The notes beneath the pieces are model-generated. The model did not search any database. It was not told where the DNA came from and saw only the letters and a program-made list of their open reading frames with translations. The position numbers and the translations under genes are program-made. Shown in pieces: positions 23,661 through 64,000 of a DNA stretch of 64,000 bases (the first letter of the stretch is position 1; the number at the start of each line of letters is the position of its first letter). This stretch comes from Zygosaccharomyces rouxii. Its lineage: Eukaryota; Ascomycota; Saccharomycetes; Saccharomycetales; Saccharomycetaceae. The stretch covers positions 744,001-808,000 of the forward strand of contig NC_012993.1 of assembly GCF_000026365.1 (NCBI RefSeq), written 5' to 3'.

Positions 23661-26215
23661 AAAGTAGCGGCGCTCATGGGTTAGATAAGTTGGCTAAAAG
23701 CGGTAGCAAAAGAAGTGCTAGTGGTAGTGCTGCCACTACTTCTAGTAACAACCGTAAAAGTCGAAACGACGGGCATGACGATGGAATAGACCAACAAAGG
23801 TCCATTTCGGCACCTGGAACTTCACAACCAGGATATCAGTCACATTTCGCCGATAACAGGTCCCCTAGGCAAGCTTATAGACCACCACCAATTGGGGCAG
23901 GGGATGAATTGACGTATTCGCCAGTACCCTCTAGTAAGAGCTTTCCCAAGAGTACACGTCACTATTCACAAGAAAATCCATACAGTGAGAGGAATTCTTT
24001 GACGATGCTAGGTGGTCCAAACCACTATGTTTACGACAATGCTGCCTATGATACCAATGATAAGGAATTCAACATTTTTAGCAAACCAGATGGTATAACG
24101 CCATGTTCTTCTAGGTTGGTGGTACAAAGTTTGACAAGTGCGTTTAAGGAGTCCATATCACACGTTGGTGATACGAAAGTTTTGCAACAGGTGGTTAAAC
24201 CGAATTTACATCACTTCTCAAAGGAAGAAGTTCAAGAGGTGAAAAGATTGATCTGTAAGTTGTTTCCCTACGATGGCTGTACTTTGAAAGACCAGGCTTT
24301 GAAGAAATCGATCAACGAATCATTCGGAGATAATGTAATTAGACTGACCGTAGCGTTAAGAATTATCTGGAGTTCATTCCCCAGGGGAATTATACCATGG
24401 GATTCGTACTATAAATTCACCAAGTGGGAATCACAAACTGGATTCCCACCAGAATCGTTCCACTTCAGGTTTTCGAAATTTCTACCTGACAGAAATTATA
24501 CATTTTGCACATTTGCATTTTTGGAATTTTTACTATGCATTCTTTTACAGAAGAATAAATTGATGCTCGACAAAAGTATTCAAATGGACTTAATCTTCAC
24601 GGCAGGTGCGACTGCATTTGTTAGGGATCCAAGCTATTGTAGTCCGGCAAATGAAGAAACGCCCCCTGTTATAAGATCCTATTATCAACGTGGTAATGCG
24701 CTGCACAGACTGTTTGTCGGGTACATACGGTCATTAAACCATGAACGTAAGATGACTGATGTCTATTTGCTAGATATATTTCAAATCGAGCAATATCCAC
24801 CAAGACCTTATAAGGCACGCTCAGCAAAGGCACTGACGTTAACAATTCCTAAGGGTAACCCAGACGGTAATGATTTTACTTCATTGATAAGTCAAGCGGC
24901 TTCTGCAAAGAAAAGATTTTATGCGTCAAGTTCTTCGTTCTCACGTATTGAAAACGCATTCTTGGATCAATTCGAAGAGCAAACTTTACGTGTCATTATG
25001 AGTTTTTTCTCTGAATCATCAAACCGTTATATTACAACGTTTGACGATGGATTCGATGCTGACTTTTTACAAGGGGCTTCCAAACGTAATAAATCACATA
25101 CTCGTAAGGTAAGTGATGATAATATGGTCGCGACTTGGTTACAAATGGCAAAGGAGCAAAATGGATTCGATGAATTATTGGATGTACTTGAAAATAATCA
25201 TATGCCAGAGGGAGGTACGTTGGCGCTGGGCGCCCCCGCGGCCACAATGGGCCCCACATCCCGCAGAGATCGTACTGAGGCTGCAGATAGTTCCGTTAGA
25301 ATTGGTAAAACTGATATTACAGAATGGATCATCAATTCTTGGAAATACGAAATGTTTATGAGTCGTGTTCAAAATACGCTTTTGATTAAATTGACTAAAA
25401 AAGTTGATGAATGCAACTGGTTAGTTTTATCATGTGAAGAAAATGTCAATATGAATCCAAAGGCAATCCCACCTCCTGCTAAACATCCGCCAATACCAAA
25501 GGAAAGACCACATCGTTTGCAACAACCAAAGGTTACTATTAGAGAGCCAGCAACTCATTCATTACCATCCGTCAAGGAGTCTGTACCCACTGATTTTTCA
25601 CATTTACCTGTTGATCTACCAATACCCGAATCTTTTGTAGAAGCTGAGCCTAAACCAGAATCGAAACCGTTGCCTAACCCAGCAGAAGAATCTTTAAAAG
25701 GACCCATTAGTGAAACCGTTAGGGAACCTTCCACGGAATCCAATGCAGATGCATCTGTGGAACCTACCAAGGTATCCAATGCAAGTTCAGTTGTGGAGTC
25801 TACCAAGGTATCCAATGCAAGTTCAGTTGCGGAACCTACCAAGGAATCCAATGCAAGTTTAGCCGAGGAACCCATCAAGGAACACAATGCAAATGCATCT
25901 GTGGAACCTACTGAGGAATCCAATGCGAGTTCAGTTGTAGAACCTACCGAAAAATCCAATGCAAGTTCAGTTATGGAGCCTACCAAAGAATCCAATGTGG
26001 ATGCAGCTGAGGAACCTACCAAGCAACCTGTTAAATCATCCGTACCCTCCAATGACGCTTTAATTGCAAAATTGAATAACGTTGGCATCTCACCGAGCGC
26101 AATTGATACCCGTTATGAAAAGAACGGCAACAGAACTGCAAGAAGCAGTCGTAACATCCTGGGAGATCTATTAGAAAGCTGCTATAGTGGAAATGAGGTG
26201 GAAGCAATAAACTAA
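23612..26215 (+). CDS. Msb1/Mug8-domain protein (MSB1-like), with 12-residue C-terminal repeats
   Basis: An 867-residue protein. Residues about 175-520 resemble the Msb1/Mug8 domain: HHFSKEEVQEVKRLICKLFP, then an IIWSSFPRGIIPWDSYYKF segment, an LHRLFVGYIRSLNHE helix, and a QYPPR box followed by SAKALTLTIP, all with counterparts in S. cerevisiae Msb1 by remembered pattern. Msb1 acts in polarity establishment with Cdc42/Bem1 and the Pkc1 pathway at bud sites. The N-terminus is basic and Ser-rich; the C-terminus (710-805) has eight tandem 12-residue repeats. The gene is not between SMM1 and PHO91 in S. cerevisiae, so it may be MSB1 in another place or a paralogue lost there. I give no symbol for that reason. 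Confidence 0.65.
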   Translation: MFKNFKARIRSGSSQLKSSGAHGLDKLAKSGSKRSASGSAATTSSNNRKSRNDGHDDGIDQQRSISAPGTSQPGYQSHFADNRSPRQAYRPPPIGAGDELTYSPVPSSKSFPKSTRHYSQENPYSERNSLTMLGGPNHYVYDNAAYDTNDKEFNIFSKPDGITPCSSRLVVQSLTSAFKESISHVGDTKVLQQVVKPNLHHFSKEEVQEVKRLICKLFPYDGCTLKDQALKKSINESFGDNVIRLTVALRIIWSSFPRGIIPWDSYYKFTKWESQTGFPPESFHFRFSKFLPDRNYTFCTFAFLEFLLCILLQKNKLMLDKSIQMDLIFTAGATAFVRDPSYCSPANEETPPVIRSYYQRGNALHRLFVGYIRSLNHERKMTDVYLLDIFQIEQYPPRPYKARSAKALTLTIPKGNPDGNDFTSLISQAASAKKRFYASSSSFSRIENAFLDQFEEQTLRVIMSFFSESSNRYITTFDDGFDADFLQGASKRNKSHTRKVSDDNMVATWLQMAKEQNGFDELLDVLENNHMPEGGTLALGAPAATMGPTSRRDRTEAADSSVRIGKTDITEWIINSWKYEMFMSRVQNTLLIKLTKKVDECNWLVLSCEENVNMNPKAIPPPAKHPPIPKERPHRLQQPKVTIREPATHSLPSVKESVPTDFSHLPVDLPIPESFVEAEPKPESKPLPNPAEESLKGPISETVREPSTESNADASVEPTKVSNASSVVESTKVSNASSVAEPTKESNASLAEEPIKEHNANASVEPTEESNASSVVEPTEKSNASSVMEPTKESNVDAAEEPTKQPVKSSVPSNDALIAKLNNVGISPSAIDTRYEKNGNRTARSSRNILGDLLESCYSGNEVEAIN
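25739..26026 (+). repeat. Eight in-frame 36-bp tandem repeats inside the Msb1-like gene
   Basis: Eight consecutive 36-bp units encode variants of SNASSVVEPTKE (residues 710-805). Units differ at several positions, so the array is not recent everywhere. Being a multiple of three, copy-number change keeps the frame. The region is acidic and probably disordered. Confidence 0.9.
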
Positions 26216-40421: not shown

Positions 40422-43298
40422 ATGACTGTGGATATACCACTTGTTAATGGTACTTACTCCTTTACCATAAAGGCCTACTCAGAGGAGTCCTTCAAGAAGG
40501 CCATTGAATTTTATAAGACTTTTTTGCTTTTAGAGCATCGTTCCGACTCTGCCACTTCTGCTCTTCTTTTCAATGGGGTGGTCTCTTTGAAGATTGAATT
40601 ACAAGAAGATGCTTCCAAGCAGCGTGAAGTTGATAGTGTTTGTGAAGATTTGAAGGCAAATGGTAGCATAAAGGATTGGAGAGGTATGGTCAATGAGTCC
40701 TTCGTCTTCAAGACGGGAGATATCCTTTTCTCAAAGCAATCTTTGGTTGATTTGAAATTGCCTTACCAAAGCTATCCTAATGAAGTGTCTCCTATGCAGG
40801 TCTATACCATTGACCCTCTAGGAAACGTCATTGGTGTCACTTCTACCAAGAATGCCGTTAGTACTAAACCTACTCATCCAAGTATACCAGATCATGAAGG
40901 CCGTACTACCGCTTTGACATCTAAGGTTCCATCTTATGGTGACTTGAAAAGTGCAGATTCTGAACCTCGTGAGAAAGCTGTCGAGGCCAGTAATGTGAAA
41001 GCTCAAAAGGCTATTGGTATTATGACATCAGGTGGTGATGCTCCCGGTATGAATGCATGCGTAAGAGCTGTGGTACGTACAGCTATCCATAAGGGTTGCC
41101 GTGCTTATGCTATCATGGAAGGTTACGAGGGTTTGGTTCGTGGTGGACCAGAATATATCAAGGAATTCACCTGGGATGATGTGCGTGGTTGGAGTAGTCT
41201 TGGTGGTACCGATATTGGTACTGCTCGTTGTATGGAATTCAAAGAACGTAAGGGTAGATTGAAGGGTGCCCAACACATGATTGAAGCTGGTATCGATGCT
41301 TTGATCGTATGTGGTGGTGATGGTTCTTTGACTGGTGCAGATTTGTACAGATCTGAATGGCCATCTCTTGTGCAGGAATTGCTTGAAACCGGTGTGATTT
41401 CTCAAGAGCAATATGATCGTTATAAACACTTGAACATCTGTGGTACTGTTGGTTCCATTGATAACGATATGTCTACTACTGACGCAACTATTGGTGCCTA
41501 CTCTGCATTAGACAGAATCCTCAAGGCTATCGACTACGTGGAGGCTACCGCTAACTCTCACTCTAGAGCTTTCGTCGTCGAAGTTATGGGTAGAAACTGT
41601 GGTTGGTTAGCTCTACTGGCAGGTATTTCTACATCTGCAGACTATATTTTGATTCCAGAAAAGCCTTCTTCTTCTCGCGAATGGGAAGAACAGATGTGTG
41701 GCATTGTTACAAAACACAGACAAAGAGGTAAGAGAACTACCATTGTGATTGTAGCAGAAGGTGCTATCACTAATGATTTGGAACCAATTACATCTAAAGA
41801 TGTGCACAAGATTTTAAGTGGTAAGCTAGGTTTAGACACCAGAATTACCACCTTGGGTCATGTGCAAAGAGGTGGTTCTCCAGTTGCTTACGACCGTATC
41901 TTGGCTACCTTACAAGGTGTGGAAGCAGTGAACGCCGTTTTAGATAGTACACCTGATACTCCATCTCCATTGATTGCCGTTAATGAAAATAAGATTGTTC
42001 GTAAGTCATTGGTGGATTCCGTCAGATTGACCAAATCTGTTGCAGATGCTATCCAGGAGAAGGACTTTAAGAAAGCCATGTCCTTGAGAGATACAGAATT
42101 TATTGAACATTTGAACAACTTTATGGCTATTAACTCTGCTGATCACAATGAACCAGAGTTGCCATCTGACAAGAGGTTAAAAATTGCCATTATTAACGTT
42201 GGTGCACCTGCAGGTGGTGCTAATTCTGCTGTGTACTCAATGGCTACTTATTGTATGTCTCGTGGTCACAAACCATATGCCATTTACAACGGTTGGTCTG
42301 GATTATGTAGACATGAGAGTGTTCGCTCCTTGGATTGGGCTTCGATGTTAGGATGGCAGAGCCGTGGTGGTTCTGAAATTGGTACCAATAGAGTCACCCC
42401 TGAAGAAGCTGATATCGGTATGGTTGCATACTATTTCCAGAAATACCAGTTTGATGGGTTAATCATCGTTGGTGGTTTCGAAGCATTTGCATCATTGAAT
42501 CAATTGGAAAGAGCTAGAGACAGTTACGCTGCCTTTAGAATTCCAATGGTTTTGATTCCAGCAACTCTATCAAACAATGTTCCAGGTACTGAGTATTCTT
42601 TGGGTAGTGATACTTCTTTGAATGCTTTGGTGGAATACTGTGATGTGATTAAACAATCTGCATCTTCCACTAGAGGTAGAGTGTTTGTCGTTGAATGCCA
42701 AGGTGGTAATTCTGGTTACTTAGCTACCAGTGCTTCTCTAGCATGTGGTGCACAAGTTTCTTATGTTCCTGAAGAAGGTATTTCGTTGGATCAATTAACC
42801 TTGGATATTGAAACTTTGGATAAACAATTTGAGATGTCTGAAGGTAGAAACAGATTTGGTAAATTGATTTTAACCAGTGGCAATGCATCAAAGGCCTTCT
42901 CTGCAGAAGCATTAGCAAAGGTTATGACTTCTGAATCTAATGGTATGTTTGAAGCTAAGGCAGCTATTCCTGGCCATGTTCAACAAGGTGGATTACCATC
43001 TGCAATTGACAGAACAAGAGCTACTAGATTATCCATCAAAGCTGTCAACTTCGTTGAAGATCAACAAGATGTTATGATCAATGCACGTCATGATGATGAT
43101 GAATTTGATGTTCATGATAGAAAATTATCACAAACTGCAGCTGTTCTGGGTGTTAGAGGTAGTCATGTCTTGTTTACATCGGTTAGAAAGCTATGGGATA
43201 CAGAGACTGAAATTAAAAATAGAACTCCAAAGATTATTCATTGGCAGGCAACCAGGGATATTGCAGACAGGTTAGTCGATAGGAAAAGAATCGATTAA
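40422..43298 (+). CDS. PFK2: 6-phosphofructokinase beta subunit (Pfk2)
   Basis: A 958-residue protein (959 in S. cerevisiae). The N-terminal 190 residues form the fungal-specific glyoxalase-like extension (MTVDIPLVNGTYSFTIKAYS). Then come two tandem PFK domains: the first with GIMTSGGDAPGMNACVRA, CGGDGSLTGAD and GSIDNDM (catalytic Asp), and the second with NVGAPAGGANSAVYS and IIVGGFEAF, a regulatory copy lacking GGDGS. It forms the hetero-octamer with Pfk1 and makes fructose 1,6-bisphosphate in glycolysis. Similarity throughout favours Pfk2 (YMR205C) over Pfk1, and INP1 (YMR204C) follows directly. Confidence 0.95.
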   Translation: MTVDIPLVNGTYSFTIKAYSEESFKKAIEFYKTFLLLEHRSDSATSALLFNGVVSLKIELQEDASKQREVDSVCEDLKANGSIKDWRGMVNESFVFKTGDILFSKQSLVDLKLPYQSYPNEVSPMQVYTIDPLGNVIGVTSTKNAVSTKPTHPSIPDHEGRTTALTSKVPSYGDLKSADSEPREKAVEASNVKAQKAIGIMTSGGDAPGMNACVRAVVRTAIHKGCRAYAIMEGYEGLVRGGPEYIKEFTWDDVRGWSSLGGTDIGTARCMEFKERKGRLKGAQHMIEAGIDALIVCGGDGSLTGADLYRSEWPSLVQELLETGVISQEQYDRYKHLNICGTVGSIDNDMSTTDATIGAYSALDRILKAIDYVEATANSHSRAFVVEVMGRNCGWLALLAGISTSADYILIPEKPSSSREWEEQMCGIVTKHRQRGKRTTIVIVAEGAITNDLEPITSKDVHKILSGKLGLDTRITTLGHVQRGGSPVAYDRILATLQGVEAVNAVLDSTPDTPSPLIAVNENKIVRKSLVDSVRLTKSVADAIQEKDFKKAMSLRDTEFIEHLNNFMAINSADHNEPELPSDKRLKIAIINVGAPAGGANSAVYSMATYCMSRGHKPYAIYNGWSGLCRHESVRSLDWASMLGWQSRGGSEIGTNRVTPEEADIGMVAYYFQKYQFDGLIIVGGFEAFASLNQLERARDSYAAFRIPMVLIPATLSNNVPGTEYSLGSDTSLNALVEYCDVIKQSASSTRGRVFVVECQGGNSGYLATSASLACGAQVSYVPEEGISLDQLTLDIETLDKQFEMSEGRNRFGKLILTSGNASKAFSAEALAKVMTSESNGMFEAKAAIPGHVQQGGLPSAIDRTRATRLSIKAVNFVEDQQDVMINARHDDDEFDVHDRKLSQTAAVLGVRGSHVLFTSVRKLWDTETEIKNRTPKIIHWQATRDIADRLVDRKRID

Positions 43299-43738
43299 AA
43301 AAAAAAACAAAAAAACAAAAAAAAAAAATGTTCATGAGATAACTGTATAACGTGTATTCCAAACTATTTTTTATTATGATATAACTGATACGTCTTTTAT
43401 TATGTTGCACAGCCAGTGTTAGTGTTATTTTTCTTATTGACGGGGTCCGACGTGATGGCCCCTTAAAAATGTAGAAAGTGTAGGTATGTAAGACGATTTC
43501 AAAATAATCTCTAGTGGTTTCAATTCGTAAAAGCTGTTAATGCAAACATTTCAAGACGATTGGAACAATTACATTACCATCAATAATTAGTCCAATATCG
43601 ATTTTAATCATCCCTCGTTGTGTCCGAACACTGAAAAAAAATCTACCTAATGGTTCGGACAGTACTTCACCAATTCAAAACAACAAGAATTCAATTACAA
43701 GAGTAAACAGTTACTGTCGATCAGTATCAATACCGTTG
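43299..43738 (+). other. PFK2-INP1 spacer
   Basis: 440 bp. It begins with A-rich tracts interrupted by single C residues just after the PFK2 stop (43296-43330). A copy of TCCGAAC near 43623 is mirrored by GTTCGGA near 43652, a small inverted repeat of about 7 bp. No gene or RNA was recognised. Confidence 0.4.
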
Positions 43739-44602
43739 ATGATTGGTAATGGTACCAATTTCATTGGTACTATGAATAATCCGCTTGATCTTAACATACC
43801 AAAGAAAAGAAAGAGGGATGTCAATAGACAAAGACTATCAGCACATAAGGTTTCATTATTTCAATATTCAAATGTAAAGGCTATTAGTTGCACCGACGGT
43901 AATAAAAATACAAGTCCATTATTATCAAATGGACCGTTAGAGTTATATCAAATTGTTACACCAGCACCGAATAACTATGATAAAAGTCAAGAGATGAACT
44001 ATTTATCACTGGGGAGAAACGGAAATATTGTGCATCCAATTTTACCAAGGTTACAAGTTAAAAAATTGAAAACTAATGGAGTTAGGTTTTTAATTACGTT
44101 TTATAATCCAGAGAGGTATTGGGAATTAGAATTCCTCCCGAACAATGATGATAAAGATTTATGGGCAATCGTTGATGATTTTGAAAAAATAATTTCCAAA
44201 ATTTGTGTTTATAAAAGTGTGGAAGAGATACGAGGGGAGAATGTAAATGAAAATGAAGAAAAGGAGGATGACGATGAGGATGACGATGAGGATGAATTAG
44301 ATTATTTGTTAAATGAATCGGAACAAGCACAGGATTCGAACCCAAGACTAGAAGTGATACGACGTGAAGAAACTCGAGCATCCCGTGAGACCTCCACGGA
44401 TGAATTCATCAACCAGGCATTTAAAAGGGCGATTCGTGCACTAAGCAATCCAAGAGATGCTACCACGAATCGGCCGAGGAGGCATAGTACATTTATTGCC
44501 CGTCGACCGCATCAGCAGCAACCACAACAAAATGACGTCATGAGCAAAAGATTTTCATACCAAGGTTTACCACTTCGCATAGCATCGGACCCAACAAATT
44601 AA
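43739..44602 (+). CDS. INP1: Peroxisome inheritance protein Inp1
   Basis: A 287-residue protein, shorter than the S. cerevisiae one (420). Characteristic blocks are kept: RQRLSAHKVSLFQYSNVKAI, GPLELYQIVTP, NYLSLGRNGNIVHPILPRLQ and FLITFYNPERYWELEFLP, followed by a long Asp/Glu run and LDYLLNE, then a Ser/Arg-rich C-terminus. Inp1 tethers peroxisomes to the mother-cell cortex together with Pex3. The real ATG is at 43739; one earlier codon is TTG. The stop is only 30 bp from the GCN4 stop on the other strand, which is also where synteny with YMR204C switches to YEL009C. Confidence 0.9.
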   Translation: MIGNGTNFIGTMNNPLDLNIPKKRKRDVNRQRLSAHKVSLFQYSNVKAISCTDGNKNTSPLLSNGPLELYQIVTPAPNNYDKSQEMNYLSLGRNGNIVHPILPRLQVKKLKTNGVRFLITFYNPERYWELEFLPNNDDKDLWAIVDDFEKIISKICVYKSVEEIRGENVNENEEKEDDDEDDDEDELDYLLNESEQAQDSNPRLEVIRREETRASRETSTDEFINQAFKRAIRALSNPRDATTNRPRRHSTFIARRPHQQQPQQNDVMSKRFSYQGLPLRIASDPTN

Positions 44603-44632
44603 ATTAACATCTAATTAAATTTTATTTAACAA

Positions 44633-45277
44633 TCAAGCTCCAGTTTCAGATAGAGCGAGTCTCTGTTCCAATTGACGATTTCTTTTCTCTAATTCTTCAT
44701 TCTTGGCCAGTAATTCTTCAACTCTTTCCTCAAGTTGAGACATTCTTTCTAATTTCCTAGCTCTAGATCTCCTTGCGGCCTCGGTATTACGTGCCCTTTT
44801 CATCGCAACAGGATCATCACTTTCGCATAAAACCGGCGTCAGTGGTGCGTTCCTATTCTTACGATTGTAAGAAACAACACCTAACTTGTCTACCTTGGAA
44901 ACACGGGAAGCCCTACTCCTTGGCTTGGGATCTGGTTGGGGTGTAGGCAAAACAAAATCGGACACTGGTGCGGGGATCTCAGAAACCGGAAACTCTGGCA
45001 CCGAATCGACAGCGATACCGAAATCGACATCGCTCGAACCCGTCGCCAGTTCCTGTAATACACCTTCAACTTCAGTACTTCCTACTCCTGTACTACTTTC
45101 AACATTTGCATCCTCACCAGTACCAAACAGAGGTTCCCATGTTTCCTGATGCTGTGGTGGATCCAATTCGAACATCGCCTGCTCATCTTCTAAAAAGAAA
45201 CTGTCCGCGATCTCCGCACCCAAACATCCGGGCACGGGGCTATCTAACTTATTCTCAAATAAACTTTGTACTGACAT
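44633..45277 (-). CDS. GCN4: bZIP transcription activator Gcn4
   Basis: A 214-residue protein (281 in S. cerevisiae). The basic region [20 protein letters not shown] is identical in most positions to Gcn4, followed by a leucine-zipper ([20 protein letters not shown]). Activation motifs are conserved: [15 protein letters not shown] near residues 26-40 and WEPLF at 47-51, matching the central WxxLF activation patch. The [18 protein letters not shown] segment before the bZIP is also Gcn4-like. It activates amino-acid biosynthesis genes during starvation by binding TGACTCA. Translational control is expected from the uORFs in its leader. It is divergent from MIT1 (YEL007W). Confidence 0.95.
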
Positions 45278-56277: not shown

Positions 56278-57555
56278 TCAATTGTTCTTCTTACTAGTAT
56301 TCACTGATTTACTAACCGCTGGGGATGCAGTGATAAAAAATATGATGAAGATGATCCAAGCAAAAATCACTGAAAAGATAGAGCTCAAGTAAATGACAGC
56401 ATTAGAGATATCCCAACTTCTTGCATATTCACTATGAGCCAGATTACGAATAGGTTTCACATCTCTTTGCACAGCAAATGAAAATCCATCCCTCTTGTAA
56501 TCGGTTTCAAAAGTGAAGACACCATGATGATCAGGCAAGTTAAATTCACCAGTAGTATAATATTGAACTTCACCTTCTTGTCTACCTGGTTTTAAAGTTA
56601 ACCTGTAATAAGGATCTAACATTTTCAATTCAAATTGAATGTCATCAGTAATGAATGGTACCCATTTTTCACCATTCCATTCTGAAAAGCCAACTTCATA
56701 GATTACAGTATCCTTAATCTTATAAGGTACTTCTTCGTAAGAAGTACCATCAGCATGGAAATGAGATGCACTAACACTTTTAATGACATTCTTTTCTTGG
56801 AAAACCCATTTAGCCACTTCCTGAACAAAGTTACCATTGCTACCGTAGAATTCATTCTTCAAGAAATCGACACTACCTAACCAAGCCACACGAGCATTCT
56901 TTAAATTTTGGAATGCGGCTGCCAAGAATCCTTGAGAACCAACAGACCATGGATCCTTGCTAGTAGCTCCAGTGTAGGATGTTCTTGGCGCTGCTAATAT
57001 AGGAAAAATTTGCTCACGATTATCCAGAAGTGCAGCTGATGAACTACTCAAAGATATGGAATCGCCATCCTTAGCTTCATAAATGCGGGAACCTCTGTAT
57101 TCGCTTGAACCAATCTTCAAGGATCCTTGTACATTGTCAACCAATTCATATCCCTTAGGACTTGGGAAAATACCCAATTGATTTAAGAACAAACGAATAG
57201 AATCAGGAACTGCACCCGGACTAGTAACAGACAGTATATCACCACCATCATTGTAAAATTGTAACAAAGTCTTATCTGAAATCAATTTGTTGATATGCTT
57301 ACCTTTTACCGGTAGGACTATCAAATTGTCATAAAGTCTGTTTTCACCTTCATACAATTCAATATCTGCGGTGGAATTAGCTGTATAGTAATCTATCTCA
57401 TATTCACGACTTTTTAAATCATCTAGGAAGTTGGAAAAACTATCCAATTGATCTAACCTTTCATCATAAAGCACCAAAGTTTTAGATGCGTGTACGCTCG
57501 CCGCATACACGTTACCACAAAGGGCTAAAAAAAATGTAATAAAGATGGATACCAT
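56278..57555 (-). CDS. WBP1: Oligosaccharyltransferase subunit Wbp1
   Basis: A 425-residue type I ER membrane protein (430 in S. cerevisiae). The ATG at 57553-57555 gives the signal peptide MVSIFITFFLALCGNVYA; a longer frame would need TTG. Conserved blocks: TLVLYDERLDQLDSF, SPGAVPDSIRLFLNQLGIFP, NLKNARVAWLGS, HADGTSYEEVPYKIKDTVIY and YTTGEFNLPDHHGVFTF. A C-terminal membrane segment (about 390-415) is followed by a KKNN end, an ER-retrieval type KKxx signal. It is part of the Wbp1-Swp1-Ost2 subcomplex for N-glycosylation. Position YEL002C. Confidence 0.95.
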   Translation of the reverse strand: MVSIFITFFLALCGNVYAASVHASKTLVLYDERLDQLDSFSNFLDDLKSREYEIDYYTANSTADIELYEGENRLYDNLIVLPVKGKHINKLISDKTLLQFYNDGGDILSVTSPGAVPDSIRLFLNQLGIFPSPKGYELVDNVQGSLKIGSSEYRGSRIYEAKDGDSISLSSSSAALLDNREQIFPILAAPRTSYTGATSKDPWSVGSQGFLAAAFQNLKNARVAWLGSVDFLKNEFYGSNGNFVQEVAKWVFQEKNVIKSVSASHFHADGTSYEEVPYKIKDTVIYEVGFSEWNGEKWVPFITDDIQFELKMLDPYYRLTLKPGRQEGEVQYYTTGEFNLPDHHGVFTFETDYKRDGFSFAVQRDVKPIRNLAHSEYARSWDISNAVIYLSSIFSVIFAWIIFIIFFITASPAVSKSVNTSKKNN

Positions 57556-58252: not shown

Positions 58253-61078
58253 CTATGTATGATGATTAGGTTTTTGTACAAATAAAGGTTCCTCATTTTC
58301 CATAAAAGGATTAACAGGTTTCTTAGGGTTAACCATGTATTGCTTCGAATCAACATCAAGTACCACTTTTACCTGCTTACCGTTGCCGAGCCACCATCTT
58401 CTTAGTTCTGAGCTTGGCGGTTTAAGCGTTCTCTTATGCTTGGCGCTTGCAGGTGTGTCCTCATGGACAGTACTAACGCTTTCTTCATCAATACCATCAA
58501 TCAAAGGACCACCAGCATTTAGGATTGCTATTTTTTCTTCTTCATTAATCGTGGCTAACTTTTCGGCAATCTTACTATATATGTAAGAGGATAATGCTGC
58601 CTTCTTTTGTTCATCAACCACAGTAACTTGAGCAGAGAAAGTTGCATATACTGGTCGGTGATCTGAGAAGAGAATATCCGGGGCGCATCCGTATGTTAAT
58701 TGTTTCAAAACCTCACCCCTACTAAGGATTCTATCGGTCCATGCTGGAATACGCATCTTTTCACTGGTATCATATGTTTTAGTTCCTGGATCAAACTTGT
58801 AAGTAGGATCAAAGTTGATTTCCATTTCATTGTAGTAAGGAAAAGCTTCACCAGCGATCATCTGTTGGTTCAATTGATCTTTCTCAAAGAGGCTTCCGTA
58901 TTTTCTCTCTACAATGAGTCTTCTTACTTCCTCATTGGGCATCAAAATTCTGTAATTGAAATCACCCATCCAAATAATAGCGTCATGATCCCTTATCCGT
59001 AAACTACTTGGAAATCTAATATTTTTAACGATGGTTTTATAGTCATTATGACGCTGTTCAACATTTTCTAACCCAGCAGCTAAATGGGAAACTAGAAAAC
59101 AAAACTTCGTTGCAGAATATTTGAAACTCACGGCGACTGCTCCCTTATTTGAAGTCATCCCACCGAACCCTGTCTTCTTAACATCACCTTCAATGTGCTT
59201 GACCCTAGGATACTGCGTTTCACTCACAAAAAGCATCAACATAATCGCACCCAGTTGACTGCTCCACGGGCAACCGTACTTCCTTTCGCCAGAACTGTTC
59301 AAATGACTTAATATGATTTTTTCCCAGTGCTGCTTCAGGTAAGGATCCGTCGTCAACATACGGCCCGGTGTAAGTTCAACCACTTCTTCCAAACCAATAA
59401 CATACATATCTTCCTGTCTTCCTGGTTCAGGAAAAATCCAACTGCTTAAATCCTCTGCAGGAACTTTGCCGCTTAGGTTAAAAGTTCCTGCAAAAACGCT
59501 GATGTTTCTTTCAAAAGTATACGTAGACCTTCTTTGACGCAAATGATGTGAAATTGTAGAATGAAGAGGGTCATAAAGTTTAATCTTGGAGCTGAATAAT
59601 TTAGTGTAAATCTTTTTGTACTTCCCTGGATTTCGAACATTTTTAGAATAAGTTCTTTCGATCCAATAATAATTCTCTGACCAAAGCCTATCATGCACCT
59701 TAAGGAAAGCTGAGGTAATGTCTAGACCGGAAAGTTCGTTAGTGGCTAGCTCAAGAACCTCTCGACTCACGAGTCTCTCTACAGTATTAGGCCTTTCAAT
59801 TGAGTCGAATGCACTAATTCGAAAAACACCCGTCTGTTTTCCTATGTAAACACCTTTGTCCCTATTGTAGACCACAGTTCCAAATTCATAAATGTCCTGC
59901 TTCAATAAATAGAGCAATTTATGTGGTGTTTTCGTTAAAAGACCAGACCCGTAATCTACATTGGTAAATTTTATTCCCTTTAAATCAGCACAGGTCTTAT
60001 ACCCGTTTCCCAAGGATTCTTGAGATTCGCTCTTAGGTTTCATCAGGTTGACAACACTAACAACACCATATTTGGACGCAATATTATCAAAATGTCTATC
60101 AAATGCAGCTTGAGTATGTTCAAGGCTCTTCGTCAACTTGAGTTTTCTCCCGTACAAAAGCTGTCCCTCAGTGGTTTCCCAGAAAAGCGGTACGTTACCA
60201 TTCACCTGTGTATATGAGAAAATAAAATTGCTAGTAGTAACAATTATTTCAGTCTCAATGAAATTGGACACCCTACCATCTTCATCAATACCATCCAAAT
60301 CAAAGGCATTTTGTTTACTTTCTGCTGAGATTCTAGAAACCAAAGTAATCGTTGCCAGAGAATCAACCATGTCCACTACCTGAGTCTTGTAAAATCCTCT
60401 CATTAGAAAAGTAAGAAATTCACCATCAAAGCATTGCTTTTCCTCAGCAGCAATGCGGCTCCTCCAATTAATTAATTCAGTCACTAAGTTCGAATTCCAA
60501 ATAAAATTTTTGTCCTGATTGTCAATAGTGTAATCCATACTATGTGCTAAACCATGGCTTTTCAGCACATTTGAAATGTCAAAATTCCTTGAGAAGTAAA
60601 AGGTCCCATCACTAAACAGTTTTTTGAAAGCACCACAGGGGTGTTCGTTGGTTAACTTTTCGTAATTTTGTTCTGAAATTTCTTGGAATAAACTGTCAAA
60701 TACGGGGGTATCCAAACTGTGGAAATCAACATCTAGAACTTTGTAGACATTTTCTGTAGTGACAATATGTCCATCTTCTTGCCGCCATCTCGGGAATCCC
60801 ACTTTCTGCACACCTGTGATAACGGCTACGAACAGATCACCATTGACAGAGACTAACCCAAGTAACCCATTCAAAATCCGATTCTTGATTTCAACGTAAC
60901 CATTCTCTTCCGTTAATTCATGATCTGGAATGGATTTTAGAGCAACGACCGGCGTCTTTATATTCTGTTGCTGTTGCTGCTGGTTCCCAGAAACGCCAAA
61001 GATTCTCCTAAATGACAGATTATAGCCATTAGAAGACAGTACAATACTACGTGGACTCCTACCGATGAAAATTCTCAT
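58253..61078 (-). CDS. INP51: Synaptojanin-like PI(4,5)P2 5-phosphatase Inp51
   Basis: A 941-residue protein (946 in S. cerevisiae). The ATG at 61076-61078 is used; the longer frame would need TTG. The N-terminal Sac1-like domain (about 40-480) has a degenerate catalytic motif: where active Sac domains have RxNCxDCLDRTN, this reads RISAFDSIERPNTVE, without the Cys. So this domain should be inactive, as reported for S. cerevisiae Inp51. The C-terminal 5-phosphatase domain (about 500-840) is intact: WMGDFNYR, PAWTDRIL and SDHRPVYATF. A C-terminal NPF motif (VNPFMENE) fits binding to EH-domain partners such as Irs4/Tax4. It regulates PI(4,5)P2 at the plasma membrane. Confidence 0.94.
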   Translation of the reverse strand: MRIFIGRSPRSIVLSSNGYNLSFRRIFGVSGNQQQQQQNIKTPVVALKSIPDHELTEENGYVEIKNRILNGLLGLVSVNGDLFVAVITGVQKVGFPRWRQEDGHIVTTENVYKVLDVDFHSLDTPVFDSLFQEISEQNYEKLTNEHPCGAFKKLFSDGTFYFSRNFDISNVLKSHGLAHSMDYTIDNQDKNFIWNSNLVTELINWRSRIAAEEKQCFDGEFLTFLMRGFYKTQVVDMVDSLATITLVSRISAESKQNAFDLDGIDEDGRVSNFIETEIIVTTSNFIFSYTQVNGNVPLFWETTEGQLLYGRKLKLTKSLEHTQAAFDRHFDNIASKYGVVSVVNLMKPKSESQESLGNGYKTCADLKGIKFTNVDYGSGLLTKTPHKLLYLLKQDIYEFGTVVYNRDKGVYIGKQTGVFRISAFDSIERPNTVERLVSREVLELATNELSGLDITSAFLKVHDRLWSENYYWIERTYSKNVRNPGKYKKIYTKLFSSKIKLYDPLHSTISHHLRQRRSTYTFERNISVFAGTFNLSGKVPAEDLSSWIFPEPGRQEDMYVIGLEEVVELTPGRMLTTDPYLKQHWEKIILSHLNSSGERKYGCPWSSQLGAIMLMLFVSETQYPRVKHIEGDVKKTGFGGMTSNKGAVAVSFKYSATKFCFLVSHLAAGLENVEQRHNDYKTIVKNIRFPSSLRIRDHDAIIWMGDFNYRILMPNEEVRRLIVERKYGSLFEKDQLNQQMIAGEAFPYYNEMEINFDPTYKFDPGTKTYDTSEKMRIPAWTDRILSRGEVLKQLTYGCAPDILFSDHRPVYATFSAQVTVVDEQKKAALSSYIYSKIAEKLATINEEEKIAILNAGGPLIDGIDEESVSTVHEDTPASAKHKRTLKPPSSELRRWWLGNGKQVKVVLDVDSKQYMVNPKKPVNPFMENEEPLFVQKPNHHT

Positions 61079-61322: not shown

Positions 61323-62861
61323 ATGGATAAGAACTTTAATGACCTCTGTTACGCCTGTAGGATCGGAGACACAGATAACGCTGACAGACTCATATCCACA
61401 GGAGTTAACTTAAATGGGCTTGATGAATTCGATAACTCGCCACTTTTTTTAGCAAGCTTATGTGGACACGAGGAGGTGGTTAAATTATTGCTTGAAAGAG
61501 GGGCAGTTTGTGATCGTGATAGATTTGAAGGAGCTCGATGCGTCTATGGTGCACTAAATGATTCAATTCGGGATATTTTAGTCAAACGTGATATTTCAAA
61601 AGCTGTGGATATAAACCAACCATTTGTTATGCATATTTCATCATTGTTTAAAGACTGGTCCTTGAACACGCATGATATTCAAATAAGTCCTCCAAAAGAA
61701 ATAAACGACAACGGGTTGAAGTTGCACAAATTCCTATTAAGTACCAGAAGTTTGAAGTTACGATACAATTTATCCACGGTGTGGAACAACAAATCTAAAT
61801 TAACCACTGATATTCCCACTTCCGTGCTTAATATCATTACCAAATTTATTTATTTAATACCAGTATTGCACGAAATCAACATGTCCGATTACAATACATT
61901 ATTACAAATATCGCTCCAGTGGGATTTAGAGCTTCTTTCAGAGTATTTGAACCGATTAAAAGATGTAGCAGATTCCTCTGAAAAATCCACTTTGATGGCC
62001 GAATACCAATACAGATTTACAGAAGATGCCAGGGACCAACTAAAGCGATTCGTGAACGATAATATTTTGAAATGTTCGATTGATTTGCATTCCACGACAA
62101 ATTTCGAAGAAGGAATCCAGTTTGCCGAAAATTGTGTTGCTTTTCCTGATTTACTCCTTCTTGTGGAGAATTTCAACGAAGACAAGCGCATATACCCTTG
62201 CCATCTTGCAATACTAAGTCGTGCCAACTATTTCAGGATGATGTTTAGCCTTCCCATGGAAGAAAAGGCGACTTATCAAGAATATAAAGATTTCAAAGAC
62301 TCACGAAGGCTGCCGCTCATATCTCTACCATCCTGTGACTTCGAAGTGGCGGAAATAATTCTCCGTTATTTATATCATGATAGCTCCGAAATTCCCTGGC
62401 AATATGCAATTGATGTATTACTGATGGCGGATTTTCTACTTGAAGACAGGATGAAATCCATGGCCGCTGTTGTAATGACGCAATCGAAAGATTTCCTCGA
62501 AAAGCATTCAATCTTTGATATACTCTATGTTGCCTGGGAAACAAAAATGGAGCGTTTGGAACAATTTGCCGCTAAAGTAATTGCCTTTGATCTAAAGAAT
62601 TATACTAAGGAGACTGAATTGAAAAATGCTATAATAAAATCCTCTCAGATGATCTCTGTGAGGGAGGAAACCGATACGATCGAGCTTGTAGACGACATAA
62701 GATTTTATCTTCTAGAGAAATATGCCTTCGAACCAGACGATATAGACATTCTAAGTGAAGAAAAGGATATACAGCTTTTGAAAGCCTCAGGCATTCTCGA
62801 CTATCAGCAGGACGTCGCAATTATAGACAATCTCTTGGATGAGCTAACTCTCCAAGCCTAA
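61323..62861 (+). CDS. Ankyrin-repeat and BTB-domain protein, YIL001W homologue
   Basis: A 512-residue protein (513 in S. cerevisiae) from the ATG at 61323; an 8-codon longer frame would need TTG. Ankyrin repeats at about residues 5-85 (FDNSPLFLASLCGHEEVVKLL) are followed by two BTB/POZ-like regions, one near 110-220 and one near 275-400 (VENFNEDKRIYPCHLAILSR, YFRMMFSLP). This resembles the ankyrin-BTB (ABTB1/Btb3) family, whose members act as adaptors for cullin-3. The S. cerevisiae gene is uncharacterised. It is the gene next to CEN9 there, and here lies one gene away from a centromere-like element. Confidence 0.93.
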   Translation: MDKNFNDLCYACRIGDTDNADRLISTGVNLNGLDEFDNSPLFLASLCGHEEVVKLLLERGAVCDRDRFEGARCVYGALNDSIRDILVKRDISKAVDINQPFVMHISSLFKDWSLNTHDIQISPPKEINDNGLKLHKFLLSTRSLKLRYNLSTVWNNKSKLTTDIPTSVLNIITKFIYLIPVLHEINMSDYNTLLQISLQWDLELLSEYLNRLKDVADSSEKSTLMAEYQYRFTEDARDQLKRFVNDNILKCSIDLHSTTNFEEGIQFAENCVAFPDLLLLVENFNEDKRIYPCHLAILSRANYFRMMFSLPMEEKATYQEYKDFKDSRRLPLISLPSCDFEVAEIILRYLYHDSSEIPWQYAIDVLLMADFLLEDRMKSMAAVVMTQSKDFLEKHSIFDILYVAWETKMERLEQFAAKVIAFDLKNYTKETELKNAIIKSSQMISVREETDTIELVDDIRFYLLEKYAFEPDDIDILSEEKDIQLLKASGILDYQQDVAIIDNLLDELTLQA

Positions 62862-62910: not shown

Positions 62911-63594
62911 TTAAGGTTTCTCTGGTTTTTTGTAAGTATCTGGCAACCAAGATTGATCTACAGCAACAGGCTTCGCATTTTTAGCAGGTTTTCTTTTGGT
63001 TTCAGATTTGTCAAACGTGATGAAGGCATAAGTAGCACCTGCAATCAATAGGCCGAGAAGTATCTGCACGGATAAGAAGCTTGGGTTAAAGAAAGATAGT
63101 GGAGGAGGGTTGACAGTAATTAAAAGAGGGCGGATTCCTACTCTCAAGGGCTCACCATCCTTCATCACGTTCAAAACTGGCAACATGTAAAAGTTACCTT
63201 CTGGAAGGATCAATTGCACACCTGCTTGAAAGTTAGCAGTTTCGTTCACGCCAATTGGAACAGGTCCAATTGGTTGCTCGGTAATGTTAGCGACCTGATA
63301 ACCGTCTGGTGTCGAAATAACGCTACCAGCGACACCAACAACGCTCACATTGACCTTCTCGTTGTTGGTAAACGAATAATTAAATGTCGCAACCTCTTGC
63401 ATTGAGAACTCCACACCTCTGGATAGATCAGTGTCTAAGTGTTCGAGAATATTGTAGCCAACATCAAAATCAATGGTAGAAGGCTCCTCAACAGCGGTTT
63501 CGTTCGAAGAACTTTCAACATCAACCGATTCAGAAGATGCCAATGCTAGAAATGCATTAACTAGCAGGAACAGTGTCAATTGGAAAAGCTTCAT
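62911..63594 (-). CDS. IRC22: ER membrane protein Irc22 (TRAP-alpha-like)
   Basis: A 227-residue protein (225 in S. cerevisiae) from the ATG at 63592-63594, which has A at -3 and starts the signal peptide MKLFQLTLFLLVNAFLALAS. An upstream in-frame ATG at 63669 has T at -3 and would bury the signal peptide behind 25 residues. The lumenal domain contains FTNNEKVNVSVVGVAGSVIS, and GNFYMLPVL precedes a single membrane segment (about 173-193) and a basic tail ending SWLPDTYKKPEKP. The family resembles the translocon-associated TRAP-alpha subunit; the yeast function is poorly defined. It is YEL001C, the gene next to CEN5. Confidence 0.93.
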   Translation of the reverse strand: MKLFQLTLFLLVNAFLALASSESVDVESSSNETAVEEPSTIDFDVGYNILEHLDTDLSRGVEFSMQEVATFNYSFTNNEKVNVSVVGVAGSVISTPDGYQVANITEQPIGPVPIGVNETANFQAGVQLILPEGNFYMLPVLNVMKDGEPLRVGIRPLLITVNPPPLSFFNPSFLSVQILLGLLIAGATYAFITFDKSETKRKPAKNAKPVAVDQSWLPDTYKKPEKP

Positions 63595-63718
63595 TTTTGA
63601 GTAGCTTAGCTTGATTTTAATGGTTACGTGTAAAAGAGTTTGTTCAAGCTCTATGTTTATAGACGCCATTGAATAAAAAAAAATAAGTTGACAGCATTAT
63701 TGCTAAAGGGTAAATTTA

Positions 63719-63726
63719 GTCACATG
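63719..63726 (+). promoter_or_regulatory. CDEI, Cbf1 site of the centromere
   Basis: GTCACATG matches RTCACRTG, the binding site of Cbf1. Confidence 0.85.
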
Positions 63727-63860
63727 ATATATTTCTAGTAATACGTTATAAGTATTATTTTTAATCTATTCTTCTAAATTTTTAAAATAATAAAATGTAA
63801 GTTAACTTATTATTTATTATTAAATAAACGTGTACAAAACAATATTTTAAACTTCTGTTT

Positions 63861-63886
63861 AGTTTGTGGTTTCCGAACCTTGATTT
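63861..63886 (+). promoter_or_regulatory. CDEIII, CBF3 site of the centromere
   Basis: The essential CCG (63873-63875) sits in TTTCCGAA with the upstream GTTTGTGG in the proper register. This element binds the CBF3 complex and is indispensable in S. cerevisiae. Confidence 0.85.
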
Positions 63887-64000
63887 CGGCTTAAATTTTA
63901 AGAAACGATATATTAAAGCGATATCATTTACCACTCTTAGAATAATACACGTGATATATTTGCCCAACCGTTTAGATATAGCTTACATACATACGTTTAT
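63887..64000. other. Pericentromeric end of the window
   Basis: 114 bp past CDEIII with no gene. A second CACGTG-like site (ACACGTGATA) occurs near 63948-63957. Confidence 0.4.

Follow-up and report, generated by a model that had tools for sequence, protein, structure and literature searches.

Point centromere of Zygosaccharomyces rouxii chromosome 4 and candidate fixed-register positions within and beyond its three elements

The closest described counterpart of the locus analysed here is the centromere CEN4 of Zygosaccharomyces rouxii. Table 1 of Gordon (2011, PMC3141009) lists Saccharomyces cerevisiae CEN5 and CEN9, together with the centromere of Z. rouxii chromosome 4, as counterparts of the ancestral centromere CEN7, and Table 2 of a 2017 paper (PMC5433688), which gives seven as the Z. 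rouxii chromosome number, pairs Anc_CEN7 with Zr_CEN4. In these accounts the point centromere consists of centromere DNA elements (CDE) I, II and III, with a CDEII length that, according to the text of PMC3141009, varies between species and is uniform within each. The text of Helsen et al. (2025, PMC12925627) describes CDEII lengths from about 50 to nearly 200 bp in the family, with recurrent transitions and length steps close to 10 bp. For S. cerevisiae, the text of Zhang et al. (PMC6077249) gives 78–86 bp, generally with more than 90% AT. In that model Ndc10 is placed 3' of CDEIII and crosslinks are read as sequence-specific Ndc10–thymine contacts on that side, citing Espelin 1997; the same text also calls Ndc10 DNA binding non-specific and names no conserved letters there.

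The DNA studied here is a stretch of 64,000 nucleotides of Z. rouxii (hereafter the window), located on contig C4 of an assembly of 9,764,635 bp in seven contigs (C1–C7). The element close to its right end is read, with a probability of about 97% and on the strength of both sequence and position, as Z. rouxii CEN4 (ancestral CEN7), the point centromere of its chromosome. It shares the chromosome number, the CDEI–CDEII–CDEIII structure and the uniform within-species CDEII length with the published Z. rouxii CEN4, and it differs from the S. cerevisiae centromeres in a CDEII of 134 bp and 86% AT. This length falls inside the family's span of about 50 to nearly 200 bp. As a centromere, the locus is a textbook example and a useful positive control; a moderate interest comes from letters that appear in register among the seven centromeres of the genome.

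Anatomy and gene neighbourhood of the element

The element comprises the following parts:

63719–63726, plus strand: CDEI, GTCACATG, a Cbf1-type E-box by sequence
63727–63860, plus strand: CDEII, 134 bp, 85.8% AT
63861–63886, plus strand: CDEIII, 26 bp, AGTTTGTGGTTTCCGAACCTTGATTT
63870–63877, plus strand: CDEIII core TTTCCGAA, with CCGAA at 63873–63877

The first-pass annotation had placed CDEI, an 86% AT spacer of about 134 bp and a CDEIII core here, and its coordinates, including the CDEIII end at 63886, proved correct, as did its spacer length and AT value. CDEI agrees with the published E-box consensus NNCAVBTG, the 26-bp CDEIII carries the invariant CCGAA as well as both G2 and G8, and CDEII falls within the 76–98% AT and the uniform within-species length of its class.

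Taken singly, the CDEI and CDEIII motifs occur at chance frequency: RTCACRTG has 5 matches in the window with 7.4 expected, and TGNNTTCCGAA with at most one mismatch has 15 with 17.5 expected, the sole exact one being at 63867. Genome-wide, motif pairs at about this spacing, with AT content ignored, were near the level of reversed-pattern controls (11 versus 3, 24 versus 26, 1 versus 0, 20 versus 12, and 4 versus 6), and it is the combination with AT content that stands out. A composite of CDEI and TTCCGAA, with a span of 157–160 bp that closes with the latter and an AT content of 80% or higher between the two, was found once in the window and in none of 60 dinucleotide shuffles; when the AT condition was dropped, one of the 60 shuffles contained it. 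With the core reduced to CCGAA alone, the corresponding counts were 0/60 with the AT condition and 7/60 without it. An AT content of at least 0.80 was found in 4 of the 11 matches of one genome-wide pattern, on four different contigs (the next was 0.77), and in 2 of the 20 matches of another (the next was 0.72); for minus-strand matches AT was calculated after trimming from swapped ends, a difference of about 0.02.

An origin by chance, with AT-rich intergenic DNA that happens to be flanked by an E-box and a CCGAA, would suit the background frequency of the single motifs and of their pairs without the AT condition, and equally AT-rich DNA does occur in the window, where 40 of the 63,867 segments of 134 bp equal or exceed CDEII in AT (one stretch near 26199). 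The composite test, the synteny and the recurrence of the same anatomy on all seven contigs, described below, reduce the probability of a chance origin to almost nothing, and the seven-centromere comparison contradicts it.

The order of genes around the element supplies the positional evidence. The genes on its left side are, going outward:

62911–63669, minus strand: IRC22-like gene of the TRAP-alpha family (PF03896, E 1.7e-57), with a signal-peptide-like start ATG at 63594, chosen by eye
61323–62861, plus strand: YIL001W-like gene with ankyrin repeats and a BTB domain (PF00651, E 1.2e-11)
58253–61078, minus strand: synaptojanin-like gene (INP51/YIL002C-like; PF22669, PF02383), CEN9-side neighbour
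56278–57555, minus strand: OST48 family gene (WBP1/YEL002C-like; PF03345), CEN5-side neighbour

We take the S. cerevisiae names of these four genes to be IRC22/YEL001C, YIL001W, INP51/YIL002C and WBP1/YEL002C. On the right side, beyond the window (locus L022), follow genes for an RRM protein, Nop16, a phosphomannose isomerase, a HIM1/NAD-binding protein and a GDA1/CD39 protein, of which the first, fourth and fifth are presumably SGN1-like, FMP52-like and YND1-like, respectively. By these assumed names, the neighbours alternate between the centromere regions of S. cerevisiae chromosomes V and IX, which is the pattern expected of an unduplicated ancestor, and the Pfam families of the four left and five right neighbours fit interleaved CEN5 and CEN9 surroundings, the S. 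cerevisiae names and order being assumed. The CEN4 element thus has its CDEI and CDEIII cores, an AT-rich CDEII and, under the assumed names, its neighbours in common with S. cerevisiae CEN5 and CEN9. Placement of the C3, C4 and C6 centromeres by neighbours that we presume to flank them in S. cerevisiae matches the published Z. rouxii column.

Gene order and the published mapping (Table 1 of PMC3141009 and Table 2 of PMC5433688) support the view that S. cerevisiae CEN5 and CEN9 share this element as their one counterpart. Because the neighbours match the published mapping of ancestral CEN7, the locus is an already published and mapped centromere. The first-pass annotation, which had argued for a point centromere on both positional and sequence grounds and had named the adjoining IRC22 and YIL001W homologues and the CEN5/CEN9 relationship, is borne out in these respects. 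Its term "ancestral-type" applies to the location only, CDEII length having changed repeatedly in the family, and the cited papers give no evidence for 134 bp as the ancestral value.

Several minor features lie in or beside the element. An inverse TTCGG is present at 63885–63889, 7 bp past the CCGAA of CDEIII (63873–63889 together), and CEN2 likewise has a TTCGGAA about 30 bp past its own CCGAA. A further CDEI-type site with a perfect match, ATCACGTG (minus strand), is located at 63948–63955, about 70 bp past CCGAA. CDEII contains a 36-base imperfect inverted repeat (83%) at 63786–63821, centred near GTTAAC. A DNA similarity comparison of the element with the rest of the genome returned only the element itself and this 36-base self-inverted match, and no tRNA genes were found by ARAGORN (bacterial code) in the window or on L022. 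Farther away (window 40422–45277), a phosphofructokinase gene has an Inp1-family gene and a bZIP gene as neighbours. The phosphofructokinase and Inp1-family pair presumably corresponds to a chromosome XIII block of S. cerevisiae, and a synteny breakpoint may be located near 45–47 kb of the window.

The seven centromeres of the genome

One element was found on each of the seven contigs. Those of C1, C2, C4, C5 and C7 were obtained from motif patterns, the C5 one being returned by two of them. CEN3 and CEN6, with CATGTG as the CDEI core, escaped the gapped patterns for that reason and were reached via CDC5/RPB11 (CEN3) and HAT1/LOC1 (CEN6), which we take to be centromere neighbours in S. cerevisiae, and both have a CDEII of 134 bp. 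CEN6 is located at L071:2741–2898 (C6, plus strand), between a HAT1 family gene and a LOC1-like start, the latter recognised by eye. CEN3 is at C3:581803–581960 on the minus strand (L072), with CCGAA at C3:581803 in a CDEI–CDEII–CDEIII element. In both, CATGTG lies within TCATGTGA, the reverse complement of TCACATGA, and is outside the published consensus NNCAVBTG, which has V at position 5. TCATGTGA occupies the same columns as TCACATGA of CEN2, CEN4 and CEN7, and the E-box of CEN3 and CEN6 reads as one flipped in place.

A position of CEN3 directly beside the 3' end of CDC5 was ruled out: the gap there (C3, L069:1777–1992), which faces the RPB11-like gene, has no CCGAA. The CDC5-like and RPB11-like genes are arranged tail to tail on C3 without a centromere, and CEN3 is about 14 kb off on the minus strand. 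The gene order that we presume for S. cerevisiae pointed, through an inversion, to roughly C3:577–584 kb, and under the same assumption the CDC5/RPB11 arrangement fits an inversion that took in CEN3.

From CEN1 to CEN7, the CDEII lengths are 134, 134, 134, 134, 136, 134 and 134 bp, with AT contents of 82.1–88.8%. The CDEI columns T2, C3, A4, T7 and G8 are invariant in all seven centromeres and an A directly follows the motif on the 3' side in six; in CDEIII, G2, T3, T11, T12 and CCGAA are invariant in 7/7. The first-pass annotation had proposed such an alignment and had taken lack of conservation among the other centromeres as refuting; the element is kept on every contig, and only CEN5, at 136 bp, departs from the CDEII length of 134 bp. 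Other observations limit this picture or weigh against it. Five of the seven elements came from distance-limited CDEI–CDEIII patterns, which favour a similar, not one exact, length; the patterns missed two of the seven, and a second, divergent copy could exist; and CDEIII position 1 is A in CEN4 and T in the other six centromeres.

The element could also be a relic, its ancestral neighbourhood and motifs having outlasted its function, with another site of the chromosome serving as the centromere. Centromere loss is known in this lineage, the Z. rouxii MET14–VPS1 interval having lost ancestral CEN2 according to the text of PMC5433688, and the MET14-like/VPS1-like interval of the present assembly (C2, L073:2023–2855; VPS1 recognised by eye) has no CCGAA and no AT-rich CDEI–CDEIII pair. 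In CEN4, however, all three elements are intact and have the spacing seen genome-wide, and the searches turned up no further element of this kind on C4, where the other pattern match has 77% AT and a different span. A relic is thus very improbable, and CEN4 is taken below to be the centromere of its chromosome.

Letters in register within CDEII and 3' of CDEIII

When the seven centromeres were aligned on CCGAA and compared with rotations that preserve the order of each sequence, two regions carried letters at fixed positions, represented in the window as follows:

63768–63778, plus strand: fixed-register block in CDEII, here ATTCTTCTAAA, 93 to 83 bp before CDEIII
63891–63905, plus strand: fixed-register 3' element, TT at 63891–63892 and TAAGAAA at 63899–63905, at +14/15 and +22 to +28 after CCGAA

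All register results refer to seven sequences of one genome and to columns noticed before testing.

Downstream of CDEIII, +14 T, +25 G and +26 A are present in 7/7 centromeres, and T is found at +15 and +22 in 6/7. The information content of 2, 5, 7, 9 and 15 columns of the 3' flank was reached by none of 40,000 rotations, that of 12 columns by one, that of a single column by 8 and that of the whole 120 bases by 33; dinucleotide shuffles agreed with this result. From +29 to +450 no register signal was detected (of 8,000 rotations, 2,994 match or exceed the best column and 1,206 the whole-region value). With matrices built from the other six centromeres, CEN1 to CEN7 ranked 4, 1, 5, 3, 21, 2 and 2 of 436 for +14 to +28, and 33, 4, 8, 3, 1, 2 and 2 of 444 for +22 to +28. 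Register 5' of CDEI was unconvincing: the best single column was matched or exceeded by 4,764 of 20,000 rotations, the best pair of columns by 935 and the region as a whole by 4,820, and the smallest fraction in dinucleotide shuffles was about 0.04. Block shuffles of the nearest 60 bp gave 0.0055 for two columns and 0.018 for five, which was not borne out by the other two nulls.

Within CDEII, the block at -93 to -83 from CDEIII has a consensus of approximately AWTMTTTTAAA across the seven centromeres. In the CDEIII-aligned comparison its information was reached by none of 40,000 rotations for 9 and for 12 columns, by 4 for 7, 35 for 5, 2,055 for 2 and 17,842 for one column; with alignment on CDEI the counts were 6 for 9 columns, 2 for 12, 5 for 7, 51 for 5, 3,614 for 2 and 12,256 for one. 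Single CDEII columns are therefore not significant in the rotation test. For CDEII columns 42–55 the held-out ranks of CEN1 to CEN7 were 1, 7, 1, 2, 3, 2 and 2 of 121. The T-minus-A signal of the whole CDEII had a mean pairwise correlation of 0.148 at lag 0, reached by 0/40,000 rotations (null maximum 0.092), and of 0.098 after removal of the columns around the block (0/20,000). By part, the T-minus-A register was reached by 4 of 10,000 rotations for -134 to -97, by 113 for -77 to -40 and by 329 for -39 to -1. Compared with the mean of the other six, five of the seven centromeres had their best lag at 0, while CEN2 and CEN5 ranked 4 of 134; CEN4, the window's own, agreed best with the others (r 0.416). 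The 136-bp CEN5 keeps the register from the CDEIII side, with a score of 9.2 versus 2.8 from the CDEI side, and the best-fitting positions of its two extra bases are no more than about 10 bases from CDEI. The CDEII profile showed no significant 10.2-bp period (0.092); the strongest periods, 12.4–12.8 bp, were seen after the fact. Altogether, the alignments suggest that stretches usually held to lack fixed sequence carry letters at fixed positions.

Such signals could be leftovers of common descent or gene conversion, or a fluke of seven sequences, and not selected contacts; we give this a chance only a little short of even. Besides the small sample and the prior sight of the columns, matrices from six centromeres can be weak for the seventh, as for CEN5 at +14 to +28 and CEN1 at +22 to +28, and CEN2 ranks 7/121 for CDEII columns 42–55 and 13/125 for columns 44–53. 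Moreover, GA at +25/26 is no rarity: of the 299 non-centromeric CCGAA sites of the sequence examined, 33 have it (12/299 with T14 as well), and once the block is cut out no other local CDEII block is strong (5 columns: 633/20,000 rotations). On the other hand, no close pair of centromeres exists, CDEII identity being 39–51% in all 21 pairs and that of the 3' flanks (+61 to +450) 24–33%; the order-keeping nulls were passed at 0/40,000, and the whole-region measures still went unreached in 20,000 rotations without the block.

By analogy with S. cerevisiae, protein binding and segregation at CEN4 would involve Cbf1, which most likely binds CDEI, and CBF3, which would bind CDEIII via the zinc clusters of Cep3 (TGT and CCG half-sites); the AT-rich CDEII would then receive one Cse4 nucleosome from CBF3 and Scm3, and this nucleosome would carry the kinetochore. 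Both the fixed CDEII letters and those at +14 to +28 could be contacts of the CBF3/Ndc10–nucleosome assembly, laid out from CDEIII. The register signals would be explained most simply by a preference of the CBF3/Ndc10 assembly for particular letters 3' of CDEIII, combined with placement of the Cse4 particle, or of a second Ndc10, along CDEII as measured from CDEIII. Tentatively, and at somewhat less than even odds, one could hypothesise that the Z. rouxii centromere is a longer sequence-specified object than CDEI–CDEIII, with an A/T strand code in CDEII registered from CDEIII and strongest 83–93 bp upstream, and with a fourth element (TT, then approximately TAWGAWW) at +14 to +28 that serves Ndc10 as a binding site with sequence preference. 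In S. cerevisiae, with its CDEII of 78–86 bp, CDEI sits at about the position of the CDEII block, and the two species could therefore have the CDEIII-side geometry in common, with about five more helical turns between this point and CDEI in Z. rouxii. If the 134-bp CDEII keeps its A/T runs registered from CDEIII, the Cse4 particle would be positioned from the CBF3 side and tolerance for an altered CDEII length would be expected chiefly on the CDEI side.

The region where the S. cerevisiae model places Ndc10 matches +14 to +28 here (PMC6077249). Compared with that contact, G25–A26 are 27–28 bp and T14–T15 16–17 bp past CCG, and T14 and T15, to be set beside the Ndc10–thymine contacts, are fixed in 7/7 and 6/7 Z. 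rouxii centromeres, respectively. In contrast to the S. cerevisiae model, this one genome has letters, G–A included, that keep their register in seven centromeres. The fixed 3' element, if true, would extend the S. cerevisiae Ndc10–thymine contacts to a recognisable sequence element in this genus. Fixed positions in CDEII or 3' of CDEIII are not mentioned in the text, supplements (with their tables and logos) aside, of the two accounts of Z. rouxii CEN4 (PMC3141009, PMC5433688) or of PMC12925627, PMC6077249, PMC3155921, PMC1557759, PMC10476280, PMC12711049, PMC12873945 and PMC4060950.

The presence of CBF3 genes in the genome, examined for Ndc10 and Cep3, was confirmed by an Ndc10 domain II match on C7 (E 3.6e-73) and a Cep3 match on C1 (E 4.1e-191). 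A second, weaker NDC10 domain II match is located at C4:317904–318437 (L076), in an open frame of 823 aa (46.8 bits with neighbours); this is perhaps a relative of Ndc10 with another role.
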